This document shows, piece after piece, positions 56,785 to 64,000 of a stretch of 64,000 bases of DNA (its first letter is position 1; every line of letters starts with the position of its first letter). The notes under the pieces are model-generated. The model had not been told where the DNA came from. It was given only the letters and a program-made list of their open reading frames with translations, and did not search any database. The position numbers were made by a program, and so were the translations under genes. Source of the DNA: Tilletiopsis washingtonensis (taxonomy: Eukaryota > Basidiomycota > Exobasidiomycetes > Entylomatales); the NCBI RefSeq assembly GCF_003144115.1, contig NW_020312003.1, positions 608,267 through 672,266 of the forward strand, in the 5' to 3' direction.

Positions 56785-59700
56785 CTATGTGCGCGCCGCA
56801 AGCTGGCGCAGGTGCTCGAGCTCGCCCGACTGCTCGCACAGGGTGCGGAAGTGCCCGTCCTCGCGCTCCAGCAGCGTCGCGGGCGTGTCGAACTCAACAA
56901 TTTCGCCGGCGGCCAGCACCAGGATGCGGTCGCACACCGCCACCGTCGAGAGGCGATGTGCGATTGTGAGGACCGTCGAGTCCTTGAAGCCCTCGCTGAT
57001 CGCCCGCTGGATCGCAGTGTCGGTGTCGAAACTAAGGAGCGCGTGTCAGCGAGATAGCGACGAAGGCGCAGCGCCAAGCGACTCACTCCGTAGCAGAGCT
57101 CGCCTCGTCCATGATGATGACGCGGCCGGCCCGCAGCAGCGCCCGCGCCATGGCGATCAGCTGCCGCTGGCCAGCACTGAGGTTCGTGCCGCCCTCGAGA
57201 ATGACAGTGTCGAGCGACACAGTGGAGCGCTCGTCGTCGTCGCCCTGTAACGAGGCTGGCGCACTGCTCACGCGGCTGGCAATCTGCGACTGCGATGGCG
57301 GTGTGCGCAGGTGGACTCGATGCAAAGCTACAGACGAAGCGTCAGCAGGGAGCTCGCTCTCGCGAGCCTGTCGCGCTCACCTTCCAGCAGCTCCTCATCG
57401 GGATGCTCGTCGAACGGGTCTATGTTGGACCGCACGGTGCCGCTGAAGAGCGTGGGGTCCTGAGGAATGATGGACAGTCTAGAACGGAGGTCTCGCAGGC
57501 CCAGATCTGCGATGCTGATCCCGTCTATGGAGATGGAGCCCGCGTCGAACTCGACGAAGCGGAAGAGGGCAAGTGCGAGGCTGCGGAAGGTCAGCGCTGT
57601 GGCGACGAAGTCTGGCCGGAGCACTCACGTCGACTTGCCGCTGCCGGTCCGGCCCACGATGCCCAGCTTCTCGCCTGGCCGCACCGTAAATGACACATTG
57701 CGCAGCGCCGGCTCGAGGTCCGGCGCGTAGCGGAGCGTCAGGTTCTCGAACTTGATCTCGCCTCGCGCAGGCCACGAGGCCGGCGGCCGGCAACCGGTGA
57801 TCGCGGCAGGCTCTTGCTTGGTGCGCTCCGGGCTGATGAGGTCCTGCAGACGCTCGATGGAGTTGAGGTCCTGATCGAGTGTACTCTGGAAGCGCGACAG
57901 CCAGTACACGGCGCCGACGACTGTCTGCAGCGAGGTGAGGGCGACTGGAGAGGGTGTCAGAGTGCACGGCTGTGTGTCATTCGGTTGTTCACTCACCACC
58001 TGCGAGGCCGGCCGGGATGCCGCCGTTGAGCGCTGCCACGCTTGCCGTGGCTGTGCCGACGGCACCGAGTACGTCTAGCCGCACGAGCGCCCATCGCGAG
58101 CTGAACCAGAAGAGCGCAAAGGAGCTCGACATCTGGTCCAGGTTGACGAGGAACTCTGCGAGCAGGCGGCGCTCTGCAGCGAACGCGCGGACGGTCTCAA
58201 GGCCGGAGAGCAGCTCAGAGAAGCTGCAGTGGACATGTCAGATGCGAAGCCGGCGACACACGCTCGTTCTACACACCGTGCAAAGATCGGCGAGCGGCTC
58301 GTCGACTCGATGCGCCGGAATGAGCGAGCTGTCGCAACGTATCGCCGTGCGACCTGCCAGTTGATGAGCGCCAGGAATGCGACGGGCAGCAGCATCGTTG
58401 GCAGCGTGAGGGTCACGACGACGAGCGACGTGAAAAGGCCGAGAATGTACACGCTCATCGCCTGCAGCGTGTCCGTGCAGCTCTCGTCGACCTGGCTGAC
58501 GTCCTTTGACATTGTGTTGAGCACGCGGCCGCGCCTGTGGAACGGAGTTAGCATGTGGCGCCGATATCTGTTACGCGCGACTCACGGAGTCTGATCGAGC
58601 CAGCGAGACGTCGCAGACATGAGCGAGCCCAGCGCCTGGCCAAAGATGCGCCGAGCAGCGCGTCGTCCGCCGCCTTGCATAATCAAGATCACGCAGAGCA
58701 TGAGCAGGAAGCCGACGGCCTGCAGGCCCACGAAGCCGAGCAGATACAGTAGAGGAGCCTCGTCGCCGCGCATTGCTGAGAGCGCTCCTTCATGAGCGAT
58801 GTGCACCGCATGATGCAGCGCTCCGAGCGCCGGCAGCTCAATGAACGGCAGCAGCAGACTGCGAGCAGAGGCAGTGCCCCACCAGCTGAGGTAGAACTTC
58901 TCGCCGACATCGGTGCTCTGCCGCAGCAGCATGGCGCTAAACGCGAAAGCCAGCGTCGCGTAGCCAAAGGCACGCAGGTACGAGACGTACACCTTGAGCT
59001 TGGTGCCACCGGTGGAGCGGCGCTCCTTGGACACGAGCTGGCCTGCATCGGTCGAGGCCGCGATCTTTGGCGGAGCCGCTGTTGCATCAGCGGGCGTGTT
59101 TTCCTTCTCGCTATCAGTGGCGCTATCGCGCACGGCTGGCGCGAGATGCCCAGAGGCGCGCAGCTCGTCGGGCGAGCCTTGTGCCTCGATGTGCCCGCGG
59201 CTGAGCTTCACCACGTGCGCGCACGGGATGGTCAGCGCAAGGTCGACGTGGTGCGTGACGAGCACGACGGTGCGGTCCTTGAGCAGCGGTCCGGCAAGAA
59301 GGTCCTCGACGATGCGTTTGCCCGTCGTAGCATCAAGCGCACTGAGGACATCGTCGAGTAGGACAGTCTGAGAGGGGGCGTACACTGCTCGTGCCAGAGC
59401 AACTCGCGCGCGCTGCCCGCCGCTCAGCGTCAGGCCGCCCTCGCCGATCTCCGCTGCGTCGCCGCCAGGCAGGATGGCCAAGTCTGGCGCCAGGCAGCAG
59501 GCCACGAGTGTCTGCTCGTAGCGCGTCGCCTCGAATGGCGAGCCAAAGAGAATGTTGTTCCGGATCGTCGCGTTCTGCAGCCACGGCCGCTGGGCGCAGA
59601 AGGAGACGAGACGGTCGCGCGTCTTGGGCAGATACACGGCGCCGTCGTCCTCCATAATCATCTCGCCGAGCAGCGCCGAGAGCAGCGACGACTTGCCGCT

Positions 59701-61910
59701 GGCTGTTGGGCCGACGACGAGCGAGAGCTTGCCCTGTGGGAAGATGACGGACAGGTCGCGCAGGGAAAAGGGCTCCGCGGGCGTGGCTGTGCCAGATGTT
59801 GTCGCTGTTACTGCTACCTTCGGCGTCTCGGGTGCGGGCTTGGAGCGTAGACGCAGCTTGGCAGCCAGGCGCGCGGCAAAGGAGCTCTTCTCGACGGCTG
59901 CGACAGGCACGTCTGCAACTGCAGAGACGGCAGGCCATCTGAACGTGGCGCTCTCGAAGCCCAGACGCCCGTCTGTGACGATCTTGCTGTCGCTCGCCGC
60001 GAGCGTAGACACCCAGGCGGGCACCTCGTCGCTGCGCAGGTAGTCCTCGATGCGCTCAAGCGAGACGCGCGCGTTCAGGATGTTGTTGATGTACATTGGC
60101 AGCACCGAGAGCGCGTTGCGCATCGATGTGATCACGGCGATCGCGGGAAAGGCGACGGAGATCGTGAGGCGATGGCCGCTCAGCGTGTAGGCGAGGAAGG
60201 AGAGCGAGGTGATGCAGGCCGGCGTCGCGCCCCAGAGCACGGAGTTGAGGGCTGAGAGACGCTGCCGCTTGCGCAGGAGCGACAGCTCGTGCTCGCGTGC
60301 CTCGATGATGCGCGCCTTGAACTGCTCCTCCTGCGCAAAGTAGCGGATAGGCCGCAGCGCAGAGAACATCTCTGCGATGAGGCCTGTCCGGCGATCGCGC
60401 GCGGCGCCGAGCTCGCGCGTGATGCGCATCGAGCGGCGCGTGAGGAGCGACTGGAGCGGCGTCGAGATGAGCAGCACCGAGAAGCCCGCCAGCGCGCTCC
60501 AGCCCAGCAAGTTGTAGAGGAACACACCGGCGACGAGGATTTCGATGGGGCTCGAGTAGAGGAAGTAGGCGCCAGCGAGCAGCACCGAGATCTTCTGCGC
60601 GTCGACGGCCATCAGCGAGACGATGGCGCCCAGGTCGCGTGCTCCGGCTGCCGGCTTCTTGGGCGCGCCTGGTGCCGCAGTCTCAGCCTCGCCAGCCTGC
60701 TGATTCGCCCGCGTCCGCAGTGCCTTGTTGTAGATGAGGCTGATCAGCTCGCCGCGCGTGCGAATGCATGCTCTGCGCCCGTGATACAGGTGCTGCAGGT
60801 CAGTCTGCGCCTTGAGCACGCTTGCAGTAAAGGCAGCCAGCGGCAGCAGGTATGCCGAGGACGGGACCTTGCCAGTTGGGCTGCTCGCCGCCTGCGTGAT
60901 CGCCTCGAGGATCCGCTTGAGAAAGAACGGCCCGCTGACGGACAGCGCCGCGGACACGAACGTGAGGGTTGCGTCCGCGAAGACGTCATGGGCGTTGGCG
61001 ATCCACAGCCGCTGGAGGAGCGTGCCGGACAGCGCCTCCATCTTGCGCAGGATGAGCGCGCTTCGGCTGGAAGCAGAGAGGGCAAACACGTCGCCGTCGT
61101 CGAGATCGCGCTTGAAGCCCTCGTTAATGAGCGGCGTGAGCCAGCTAAATGTGACCCACTCGAGCAGCGTCGCGTAGTCCTCGCGCGCTGGAGGCGGCAC
61201 ACCGGGCGCGAGAGGCGGCGCCGGGTACGGCGAGAGCGGCAGCGACGCGGCCAGCAGCACAAGGACCAGCGCTGGCAGACCTGTGAGGACTGGCACCAAG
61301 AGTGGCTGTCTGAGCAGCACTGCGTCGAGCAGCACCAGCAGCGCCGCGACCAAGTGGCACAGCCCGATCAGCAGCGTCGCCCATGGCGGCGTGACGGGCG
61401 GGCTGCGCAGCGTGCGGAACAGCACGTAAAGCTGCAGGCACGTCAGCAAGACGACAACCACGGCGGCCCGCGTCGACTCACCCAGCTGAAGGCGCTTGCA
61501 CCCGCATAGTCCAGTCGCGCCGCCGTCCACGCCAGCTCTGCCGCCGCGATGACCGCCAGACCCGCCGTGACGCTCCTCGACGCACGCAGGCGCGGCTCTG
61601 CGCGCACGCCGTCGCCGAGCAGCGGCGCTTGCTCATCTGCGAGCCCGTCATGCAGCAGCCGGTGCTGCTCCTCGATCTCTGTCGCTTCGGTAAGGCCGTG
61701 CTGCCGCAGCGCAGCGGCGATGCTCTGCCGTTCGACGGCGCGTGCCTCGGCGAGGTCGTCCTCGTCGACAAAGTCGAGCAGCAGCGGGCGCGCCAGGCGA
61801 GGCAGGCGGCGAGACGAGGCAGGCAGCAGTGCCGCGACCAGCGCTGCGCCCGCCACGCCTGCCGGCAGTGCGCCGTCGAGGAGGGAGAGGGCCAGTGCTG
61901 GCACCGGCAT
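56785..61910 (-). CDS. ABC transporter, ABCC/MRP subfamily (full-length)
   Basis: Exports or sequesters conjugated substrates using ATP. Exons 61482-61910, 58586-61431, 58277-58534, 57997-58223, 57629-57944, 57381-57580, 57087-57327 and 56785-57031 give 1,587 residues, normal for fungal MRP-type pumps (Ycf1, Bpt1, Ybt1). An N-terminal TMD0-like region is split over the first two exons. The first transmembrane block has [23 protein letters not shown]1 has [29 protein letters not shown] and [12 protein letters not shown], with Asp where the catalytic Glu would be, as usual in this subfamily. TMD2 includes [22 protein letters not shown]2 has [27 protein letters not shown] and [12 protein letters not shown], then the switch AHRLSTV. 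Membrane (vacuole or plasma) and substrate are unknown. Confidence 0.94.
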
Positions 61911-62191
61911 GATGGGTGTGAGGGGCAAGAGGCAGGCGAGGTGAGGCTGCCGCTGCCCCTGTGGTGCCGCCGCGATAGGGTCCGGTGTGGAGAACAAGCG
62001 CGCAGCAGCGCCGCCGCGCGGCCGCGCACTCTTACTGCCGGCGGCTCGGCAGTCTCGCGCTGACCTCACGGCCGCTAGCGTGCCTGACAGCGTGGGAACG
62101 CTGCCGAGTGCGAGGAACGGCGCGGCGGCAGCCGCGCGCGGATTCTTCTTCCTGCTTCAGCACCACCACGTCCACTGCAAGCCCATCTCGC
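61911..62191. promoter_or_regulatory. Divergent promoter ABCC transporter / UXT
   Basis: 281 bases between divergent start codons. No specific site was recognised. Confidence 0.4.
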
Positions 62192-62780
62192 ATGGTCGAC
62201 CCAACAGCCACAGCGGGGCCCTCGACAGCCGTGTCGCTGCAGCGATCCCGCGAGTTTCTGGCACAGCGTCTCGAGCCGGACCTGCGCGAGGCGTACGCTA
62301 CCGTGGCGCGCCTGCAGCAGGAGCAGCGCGACTGGATCGACGGCGCACGACAGCTGCGGGCGCTGCAAAGAGGGCCACAACGGGCAGAGCTGGGCGAAGG
62401 AGTCAGCATCGACGTCGTCGTGTGAGCGGATACGCTTCAGATGCGCAACTGCGGCGCTGACGTCCTCTCGCAGCGCCGAAAACGGTCCATTGCCGCGTGT
62501 CGATCTCGGCCTGCCCGGCACGGAGATGTACGCTGAGCTGACGCCCGAGGAGGGCTCTGACTTCTGCGATCGGCGAGCTGCGCTTGTGCTGCCGAAGATC
62601 CGGCGAGCTGAGGAGCGCGTCGGCGAGATCGAGGCGCACCTGCATCTGGTGAGCCGCATCTGCCACGTCCCTCCTGTGCGCCGCTCACATCCTCTGCAGG
62701 CGGCACAGAGCATCGCACAGCTCGAGGCGCTGCAGTCTGGCGAGAATCGCTCTGTCATCGATGGGCTCAGTGTACCGTGA
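62192..62780 (+). CDS. Prefoldin-like protein UXT homologue
   Basis: Prefoldin-alpha-type subunit, part of the prefoldin-like/R2TP co-chaperone complex in animals. Exons 62192-62421, 62474-62648 and 62700-62780 give 161 residues, the same size as human UXT (157). Two long helices flank a beta-hairpin region: helix 1 AQRLEPDLREAYATVARLQQ, hairpin LGEGVSIDVVV and VDLGLPGTEMYAELTPEEG, helix 2 DFCDRRAALVLPKIRRAEER and onwards to SIAQLEALQ. The block TEMYAELTPEEGSDFCDRR pairs with the LELTLAEALKFIDRK block of UXT. The donor at 62422 was chosen because it restores the hairpin frame. Another prefoldin-alpha paralogue cannot be fully excluded. Confidence 0.8.
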
Positions 62781-63176
62781 TACGCCGTGAATGCGAGGCA
62801 TGAGCATCGAGGAGGCGAGGCGTGAGCAGCGAGCCTGAAGCTGAGCAAAAGCAGCGCTGAGAGAGAGGCACGGTCATCAAGGCGAGGCGCGATCATCGAG
62901 ACAAGAGCAGCAGCGGCGTGAAGGCGAGGCATGAATTGAGCGAATGCCAGCGTGCCTTGTAAGTGGACAGGGTGAAGAAGTGCGGGTGTGAAGGAGAGTT
63001 GGGGCGAGCGGGTGACGCGGAAGGTATTAGGGGCAGGAGACAAGTGAGACGGATAAGTGAGGGTGCTGACGGGTGTCGAGGGCCAGGAGCCGACGACGAA
63101 GAAGGCGAGGGTTGGCGCGGCGCAGCGACGACGAGGCTGGCTCACCGGCGCGCCGCGTAGGAGACGGTCAGAACGC
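62781..63176. other. Spacer with degenerate short repeats
   Basis: 396 bases between the UXT stop and the 3' end of the Kex2 repeat gene. It contains several copies of a degenerate GGCGAGGC[A/G]TGA-like motif interspersed with ATCGAG/ATCATC words (about 62790-62940). No gene seen. Confidence 0.5.
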
Positions 63177-64000
63177 TTAGGCGAGGTTGAGCGGGCGGCG
63201 CTTGGAGCCCGGGTGGCGGCGCTTCTTGAGCGGCGAGCCGCCGAGGCTGTCGGTGAGCGCCGAGAGGCTGTCCGAGTCGGTGAGCGCTGAGAGGCTGTCG
63301 GTGTCGGTGAGCGCCGAGAGACTGTTCGTGTCGCCGAGCGAGGAGAGGCTGTCGGTGCCGGGCACGGCGCCGAGGCTGTTGAGGCTGCTCGTGTCGGTGG
63401 GCGCGTCGAACGAGGGAAGGTCACGCTTGCCGAATGCGCGGGCCTGCTTTGCGGCCTTGTACTGCTTCTTGGCCTGGCCCTTCTACTTCTGCTGGCTGGC
63501 CTGCTGGCCACCGGTGCTCTGGTCGTACTGAGCAAGCTCATAGTAGACCTCATTGAGGAGCGGCAGCTGCTCGAGCAGCGACTGCGGCGTGCTGCTGCCG
63601 TCGTCCTGGCGCTTGCGCTGGGAGTCGAGGCCGATGGGCGCCTGGCTTCCGAGGTAGATCAGCTCGTTGTAGAACTCGCTGACGTCCGCGTAGGCCGACA
63701 GCGGCGTGGACCCGTCAAGCGACTCGAGCTGGTTGTACAGGGCGTCCAGGAGACCGTATTGCGACAGCACACCATCGTCCTGGCGCTTCTTGAGCTGCGA
63801 GGGCTGAGTGTCCGTCGAGCCAGTGCTCTGGTCGTACGCCTGCAGCTCTACAGCGGTCTCATAGAGCGTCGGCAGCTGCCCGAGAAGGCTGTTGTCGGTA
63901 GAGTCGTCGCGCTTGCGCTGCTCGCCGATGGGGTCCTGCTGGTCGAGGTACGCCTGCGTATGGGGAGGGCATCAGCACCGCCGCAGGCAATGCGAGATCC
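63177..64000 (-). CDS. Kex2-processed secreted repeat protein (repellent-like), 3' part
   Basis: The 5' end lies beyond the window. The last visible exon begins at 63953 (acceptor CGCAG with an upstream GCTGAT branch) and stays open to a TAG at 63483. Its protein is built of repeats separated by dibasic Lys-Arg sites followed by Asp-rich starts: QRKRDDSTD, LKKRQDDG and QRKRQDDG. Each unit has a hydrophobic-acidic phrase such as SLLGQLPTLYETAVELQAYD or SLLEQLPLLNEVYYELAQYD and often ends YDQSTG. This is the layout of secreted proteins cut by Kex2 into peptides, such as the Rep1 repellents of smut fungi. Beyond the TAG the same frame continues for about 100 codons with more KR sites and four SLSALTD units, to a stop at 63177. 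The homology to Rep1 is by architecture, not by sequence. Confidence 0.7.
63236..63360 (-). repeat. 27-nt tandem repeats (9-residue SLSALTD units)
   Basis: Four 27-base units encoding variants of DSLSALTDS (also NSLSALTDT and DSLSSLGDT) downstream of the in-frame stop of the Kex2 repeat gene. Confidence 0.85.

Follow-up and report, generated by a model that had tools for sequence, protein, structure and literature searches.

The closest described systems to the gene reported here are Rep1 and Hum3 of U. maydis and the KEPs. Rep1, as summarized in PMC4617103, holds 10 peptides of 35–53 aa and one of 228 aa, parted by Kex2 sites, and the same summary states that the Rep1 peptides form surface-active amyloid-like fibrils (PMC4617103). 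Mutants in rep1 are described as having much less aerial mycelium (PMC7409079). In Hum3 the repeats are 31–36 aa long, and many of them are parted by putative Kex2 motifs, according to the outline given in PMC4617103. For the KEPs, a survey indicates that yeast-like Basidiomycota favour peptides longer than the 9–24 aa class (PMC6339444). Here we describe a candidate precursor of this general layout whose gene reaches into a window, the whole stretch of DNA analyzed, of 64,000 nt (G000:C6:608267-672266) in an 18.7-Mb genome of 32 contigs; DNA of the same contig past the window edge was also used.

The precursor gene lies on the minus strand and runs past the window edge. Judging splice signals and the open frame by eye, we modelled it with 8 exons encoding 593 aa, and the frame that carries the KR sites starts at an ATG at C6:673950 and crosses 7 modelled GT-AG introns of 52–76 bp with the phase kept in each. 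By this model, exons 1–7 lie outside the window (G000:C6:672280-673950, minus strand), and intron 7, of 60 bp, occupies positions 63954..64000 of the window and reaches 64013 in window numbering, with a GTGCGT donor, a branch-like CTGAT and a CAG acceptor. Exon 8, the last exon to the stop (63483..63953, minus strand), was placed by the gene model and the own-genome match and holds the end of A1, the units B1, A2 and B2 described below, and an in-frame TAG. A search of the genome with the precursor gave 7 matches, each an exon of the precursor gene itself, and the genome has 2 occurrences of a pattern coding for KRQDDG, each inside this gene; the gene is single-copy, one copy having been found in the genome. 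Adjoining it on the minus strand is a long open frame at 58582-61632, which from motifs read by eye we take to be of the ABC-transporter type and which was used as codon training. Upstream of the precursor gene is another minus-strand gene (L002:4850 to about 6750) with an IQ-motif-like start by eye and a TAG end. A plus-strand open frame of 236 codons (window 63291-63998) runs antisense to exon 8 and to part of the open tail that follows it, which we attribute to G+C-rich codons being mirrored on the opposite strand.

The precursor begins in exon 1 with MISRGVLALALASVASA, which by eye and by hydropathy is a signal-peptide-like leader; the most hydrophobic 11-mer of the precursor, residues 5–15, falls within it and scores 2.35, against 1.45 for the best 11-mer starting after residue 25. 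The first-pass annotation had proposed a secreted, Kex2-type precursor and had named upstream exons devoid of a signal peptide as the observation that would speak against it. The leader-like N terminus, as judged above, and the 8 dibasic sites, with KR between the A and B units, both agree with the proposed layout. The leader is followed by a domain of about 250 aa that has 7 N-glycosylation sequons (residues 23–223) and the sole 2 cysteines of the precursor. Searches of Pfam at E values up to 10 returned 0 families for the 593-aa precursor and likewise 0 for the tail searched apart. A search of the PDB by sequence with the precursor only gave 5 matches at E values up to 1, none of them convincing; the best, to a BAG5 chain (E value of 0.011) over the repeat part, was judged to be due to chance.

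From residue 270 on, the precursor carries 8 dibasic sites, with KR ending at residues 330, 358, 395, 452, 494 and 552 and RR at 270 and 318. The 6 KR sites within residues 259–593 compare with a mean of 0.67 in shuffles (P of 5e-5), and when the residues of exon 8 were shuffled at least three KR occurred in 0.01% of 20,000 trials. On the minus strand the sites of exon 8 lie at 63914-63909, where the dibasic-site scan places the boundary between A1 and B1, and at 63788-63783 and 63614-63609, in keeping with the three KR sites that had been claimed within 63550-63930. Cutting at all 8 sites would yield 8 fragments, here called p1 to p4, A1, B1, A2 and B2, of 12–58 residues including their basic ends, with 6 of the 8 at 37–58 residues. 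As for the protease, the sole P_proprotein match returned for the genome (102.5 bits; contig 10, G000:C10:700995-701255) lies inside a kexin-like ORF, in which HGTRCAGEIAA and GGTSAAAP are presumably the subtilase active-site motifs. The genome also has 2 hydrophobin-family matches over the Pfam cut-off (G000:C1:144525-144695 and G000:C16:143788-143874), one of which has a stop inside it.

The last 4 fragments alternate as A-B-A-B, with A1 at residues 396–452, B1 at 453–494, A2 at 495–552 and B2 at 553–593. As delimited by the dibasic sites and the unit alignment, B1 (DDSTDN...SQLKKR, with its KKR site) is encoded at 63783..63908, A2 (QDDGVL...SQRKR, with its RKR site) at 63609..63782, and B2 (QDDGSS...SQQK, up to the TAG) at 63486..63608, all on the minus strand. 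The alignment of A1 with A2 stands 17.0 SD above shuffles and that of B1 with B2 11.7 SD, with 0 of 500 shuffles reaching either; p3 and p4 align at 5.3 SD, and the other 18 of the 21 pairs among 7 fragments (the 12-residue p2 left out) range from -0.8 to 3.9 SD. The two-unit A-B block has thus undergone duplication. For these two pairs dN is about 0.54 and dS 0.73–0.75, so that the event probably dates far back, and the dN/dS values of about 0.72 and 0.74 are mild at best. The phrase LLxQLPxLYExxxEL reported in the first-pass annotation is real, forming the common core of B1 and B2 (LLGQLPTLYETAVEL and LLEQLPLLNEVYYEL), but it is looser than was written, the Y not being common to both. Clear copies before the stop thus number two of A and two of B, and the four 9-residue units are present only after it.

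After trimming, the predicted peptides are Cys-free and 25–55 residues long, p2 excepted. Five of the 7 longer peptides are acidic, with net charges of -5 to -12 for p3, A1, B1, A2 and B2, 0 for p1 and +2 for p4, and Gln is the first residue in 4 of the 8 fragments. With p2 left out, the helical moment stood above shuffles in one peptide of seven, p3 (8 of 400 shuffles), and did not set apart the other 6 (65–265 of 400 shuffles), and the strand moment set 0 of the 7 apart from shuffles. An AlphaFold model of exon 8 consists of helices at very low confidence (mean pLDDT of 43.3). We propose that the signal peptide would be removed from the precursor, that the kexin would cut at the 8 KR/RR sites, and that an N-glycosylatable domain of ~250 residues would be released along with a series of peptides lacking Cys, which closes with A-B-A-B. 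Most likely the peptides would form a coat on the hyphal wall and have their effect at surfaces, in the manner of the U. maydis repellents, and this is the weakest step, because the helical moment beats shuffles in a single peptide of the seven. A competing view that concerns the peptides and not the stop, and that we hold to be possible if clearly the less probable, is that they may be signals or cyclised RiPP cores rather than surface-active. It draws on Kex2-processed repeat proteins being of largely unknown function, with some pheromone-like or cyclised (PMC7329392, PMC6339444, PMC9769878); against it, the A and B units, at 41–58 residues and in few copies, are unlike the 9–24 aa pheromone class as that class is outlined in PMC6339444. 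A search for the UstYa family also returned no match in the genome, but none was returned in the control genomes either, so absence is not implied. We infer both cleavage and function when we say that the precursor probably gives rise, by cutting, to several peptides that serve at surfaces or as signals.

The in-frame TAG (63483..63485, minus strand), located by the gene model and the alignment of B1 with B2, is aligned to the KKR site of B1, so the last peptide, B2, is complete without the tail. Its C terminus would resemble that of B1 once the end lysines were trimmed, if the Kex2 and Kex1 steps outlined in PMC9769878 apply. Beyond the TAG the same frame stays open for 101 codons (63180..63482, minus strand), in agreement with the extension of about 100 codons first reported, with coding-like codon usage and with GKR, KKRR and SKRR sites, and is closed by a TAA (63177..63179, minus strand). 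Its translation includes four tandem 9-residue units, DSLSSLGDT, NSLSALTDT, DSLSALTDS and DSLSALTDS (63246..63353, minus strand). The tail has 3 KR against a shuffle mean of 0.54 (P of about 0.01). On its own, the openness of the frame says little, because at this composition it often arises by chance, 101 codons staying open in 73% of random sequences with the composition of the tail and in 18% of those with that of 62001-63176.

Codon usage was scored with a table trained on exons 1–7, the ABC-transporter-like ORF and one neighbour exon, against a background table that includes the window end itself. The tail and exon 8 each score 0.52 bits per codon, and exon 7, which is in the training set, scores 0.59; the other 5 frames of the tail are all negative (-0.3 to -1.3). 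Of 2376 stretch-frames taken from two regions presumed to be noncoding (mean of -0.43), none reached the score of the tail; the stretches overlap heavily and amount to far fewer independent ones. Its first 32 codons, which are non-repeat, score 0.58, a value reached by 0 of 3204 short noncoding stretch-frames, and on synonymous choice alone 14 of the 3204 reach this non-repeat part. Because its codon usage matches that of the coding exons, the tail appears to be translated in the frame of the TAG, or to have been so until recently. Over the 6 pairs of 9-residue units there are 10 synonymous and 13 nonsynonymous differences in frame, against 7 and 16, and 0 and 22, in the other forward frames, counts too few to establish selection. 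A likeness of the tail to p4 is no more than suggestive, as high a score being found in 3 of 500 shuffles, and it is the best among 8 comparisons.

That the tail is a gene of its own, begun by an ATG, was ruled out, as the tail has no Met, and TAG as a sense codon genome-wide was ruled out as well; because the neighbouring gene, read by eye, ends in TAG, we treat TAG as an ordinary stop here. Searching the genome with the tail recovered the tail itself and one match on contig 2 (E value of 0.118), in a frame of 147 codons that is KAPAKK-rich in part, which was dropped as chance. In a search for relatives by pattern, no match was obtained in viral contigs, and 33 stretches with the pattern were obtained in prokaryote genome contigs, none of them a relative.

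We interpret the locus as encoding a repellent-like precursor, processed by Kex2, in which an in-frame stop of recent date costs the tail alone, and give this reading a probability of about 0.5, a figure in which we infer both the age and the reality of the stop. The TAG at 63483 would most likely be a nonsense mutation that arose fairly recently in the gene of this strain; because it sits where the last B unit ends, the earlier units would still be made and the acidic repeat tail alone would be lost. Of the explanations first put forward for the TAG, the nonsense variant fits best, whereas an intron is without support and read-through is without sequence support. The undiminished coding signature of the tail, as would be expected were it still translated, is also consistent with an assembly base error or a change confined to the sequenced culture, the species itself making the long precursor with its tail, and no second copy of the gene was found in the genome for comparison. 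Nothing in the data points to a base error, however, and good assemblies seldom contain errors of a single base; we consider a sequence error less likely than a recent in-frame stop, and this account as a whole doubtful. That the TAG is instead an old, normal end, with an untranslated tail that is coding-like by chance, seems very unlikely to us: the repeat units before the TAG are all complete, a 101-codon open frame is not rare at this composition and the synonymous-choice control leaves those few stretch-frames that match the non-repeat part, but no presumed noncoding stretch-frame reaches the full codon score of the tail, and in-frame KR sites and 9-residue units lie within it.

Two further accounts have the tail joined to the precursor at present. 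In regulated read-through, most ribosomes would stop after B2 and a few would add the tail, which kexin would then cut off as a further peptide. A tail that is in frame and coding-like and has its own TAA and KR sites is compatible with this, as is a stop that divides complete units from an extra one. In U. maydis, though, efficient read-through centres on UGA CU and is lowered when UAG takes the place of UGA (PMC4207609). The context here is UAG followed by A, and the folding of the 110 nt past the stop is no more stable than that of shuffles (z of +0.82, 161 of 200 at least as stable), so that we regard read-through as unlikely, and as quite unlikely the stronger proposal that the TAG is a functional switch by which read-through would dose an acidic Ser/Asp-rich tail peptide, with the A and B peptides always complete. 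Alternative splicing that excises the TAG, thereby linking tail and precursor, would likewise draw on the tail being coding-like and in the same frame. Yet an intron over the stop, which the first-pass annotation had named as a finding that would count against its own reading, was not convincing in any of the 108 GT-AG pairs (40–250 bp, donors in exon 8) that span the TAG, the best reaching 8.2 bits against 16.5–18.7 in the modelled introns, with matrices that were built from those same 7 introns and hence favour them. To bypass exon 8, an intron several times the length of those modelled (52–76 bp) would be required, and we find splicing scarcely credible.

A mild recent truncation is most likely what the stop represents, and its place suggests that modular precursors can shed terminal modules with the rest unharmed. 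The locus would add to a class of largely unknown function a repellent-like secreted precursor with a Pfam-less N-terminal domain and an alternating A-B layout. It is a further example of a gene type already known, though its stop is unexplained, and the finding would matter more if the tail were still translated.

Set beside the known systems, the precursor is like Rep1 (652 aa) in having Kex2 sites between repeats and peptides of similar length, a comparison made by layout alone, and the large fragment, at 228 aa in the Rep1 summary, is about 250 in the precursor. Rep1 has twelve repeats, whereas the precursor has 2 unit types in two copies each, and the repellent peptides are described as amphipathic; here p3 alone of 7 beats shuffles by helical moment. 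Kinship with the smut repellents would be a likeness of layout only. Hum3 (828 aa) is similar in that repeats with putative Kex2 motifs and a folded domain are combined in one protein (PMC4617103), although in the account of Hum3 given there the hydrophobin domain comes after the repeats, and in our precursor the Pfam-less domain comes before them. With the KEPs, as characterized in the survey (PMC6339444), the precursor has in common the leader, the internal repeats and the Kex2 sites between them. The published KEP pipeline, as outlined in that survey, asks for at least 3 repetitions (PMC6339444), and the precursor has 2 clear copies per unit; subject to this repeat-number criterion, its sequence qualifies it as a putative Kex2-processed repeat precursor. 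It also has predicted peptides with an N-terminal Gln, as do the KEPs of Coprinopsis cinerea, in which this residue is found partly as pyroglutamate (PMC9769878).
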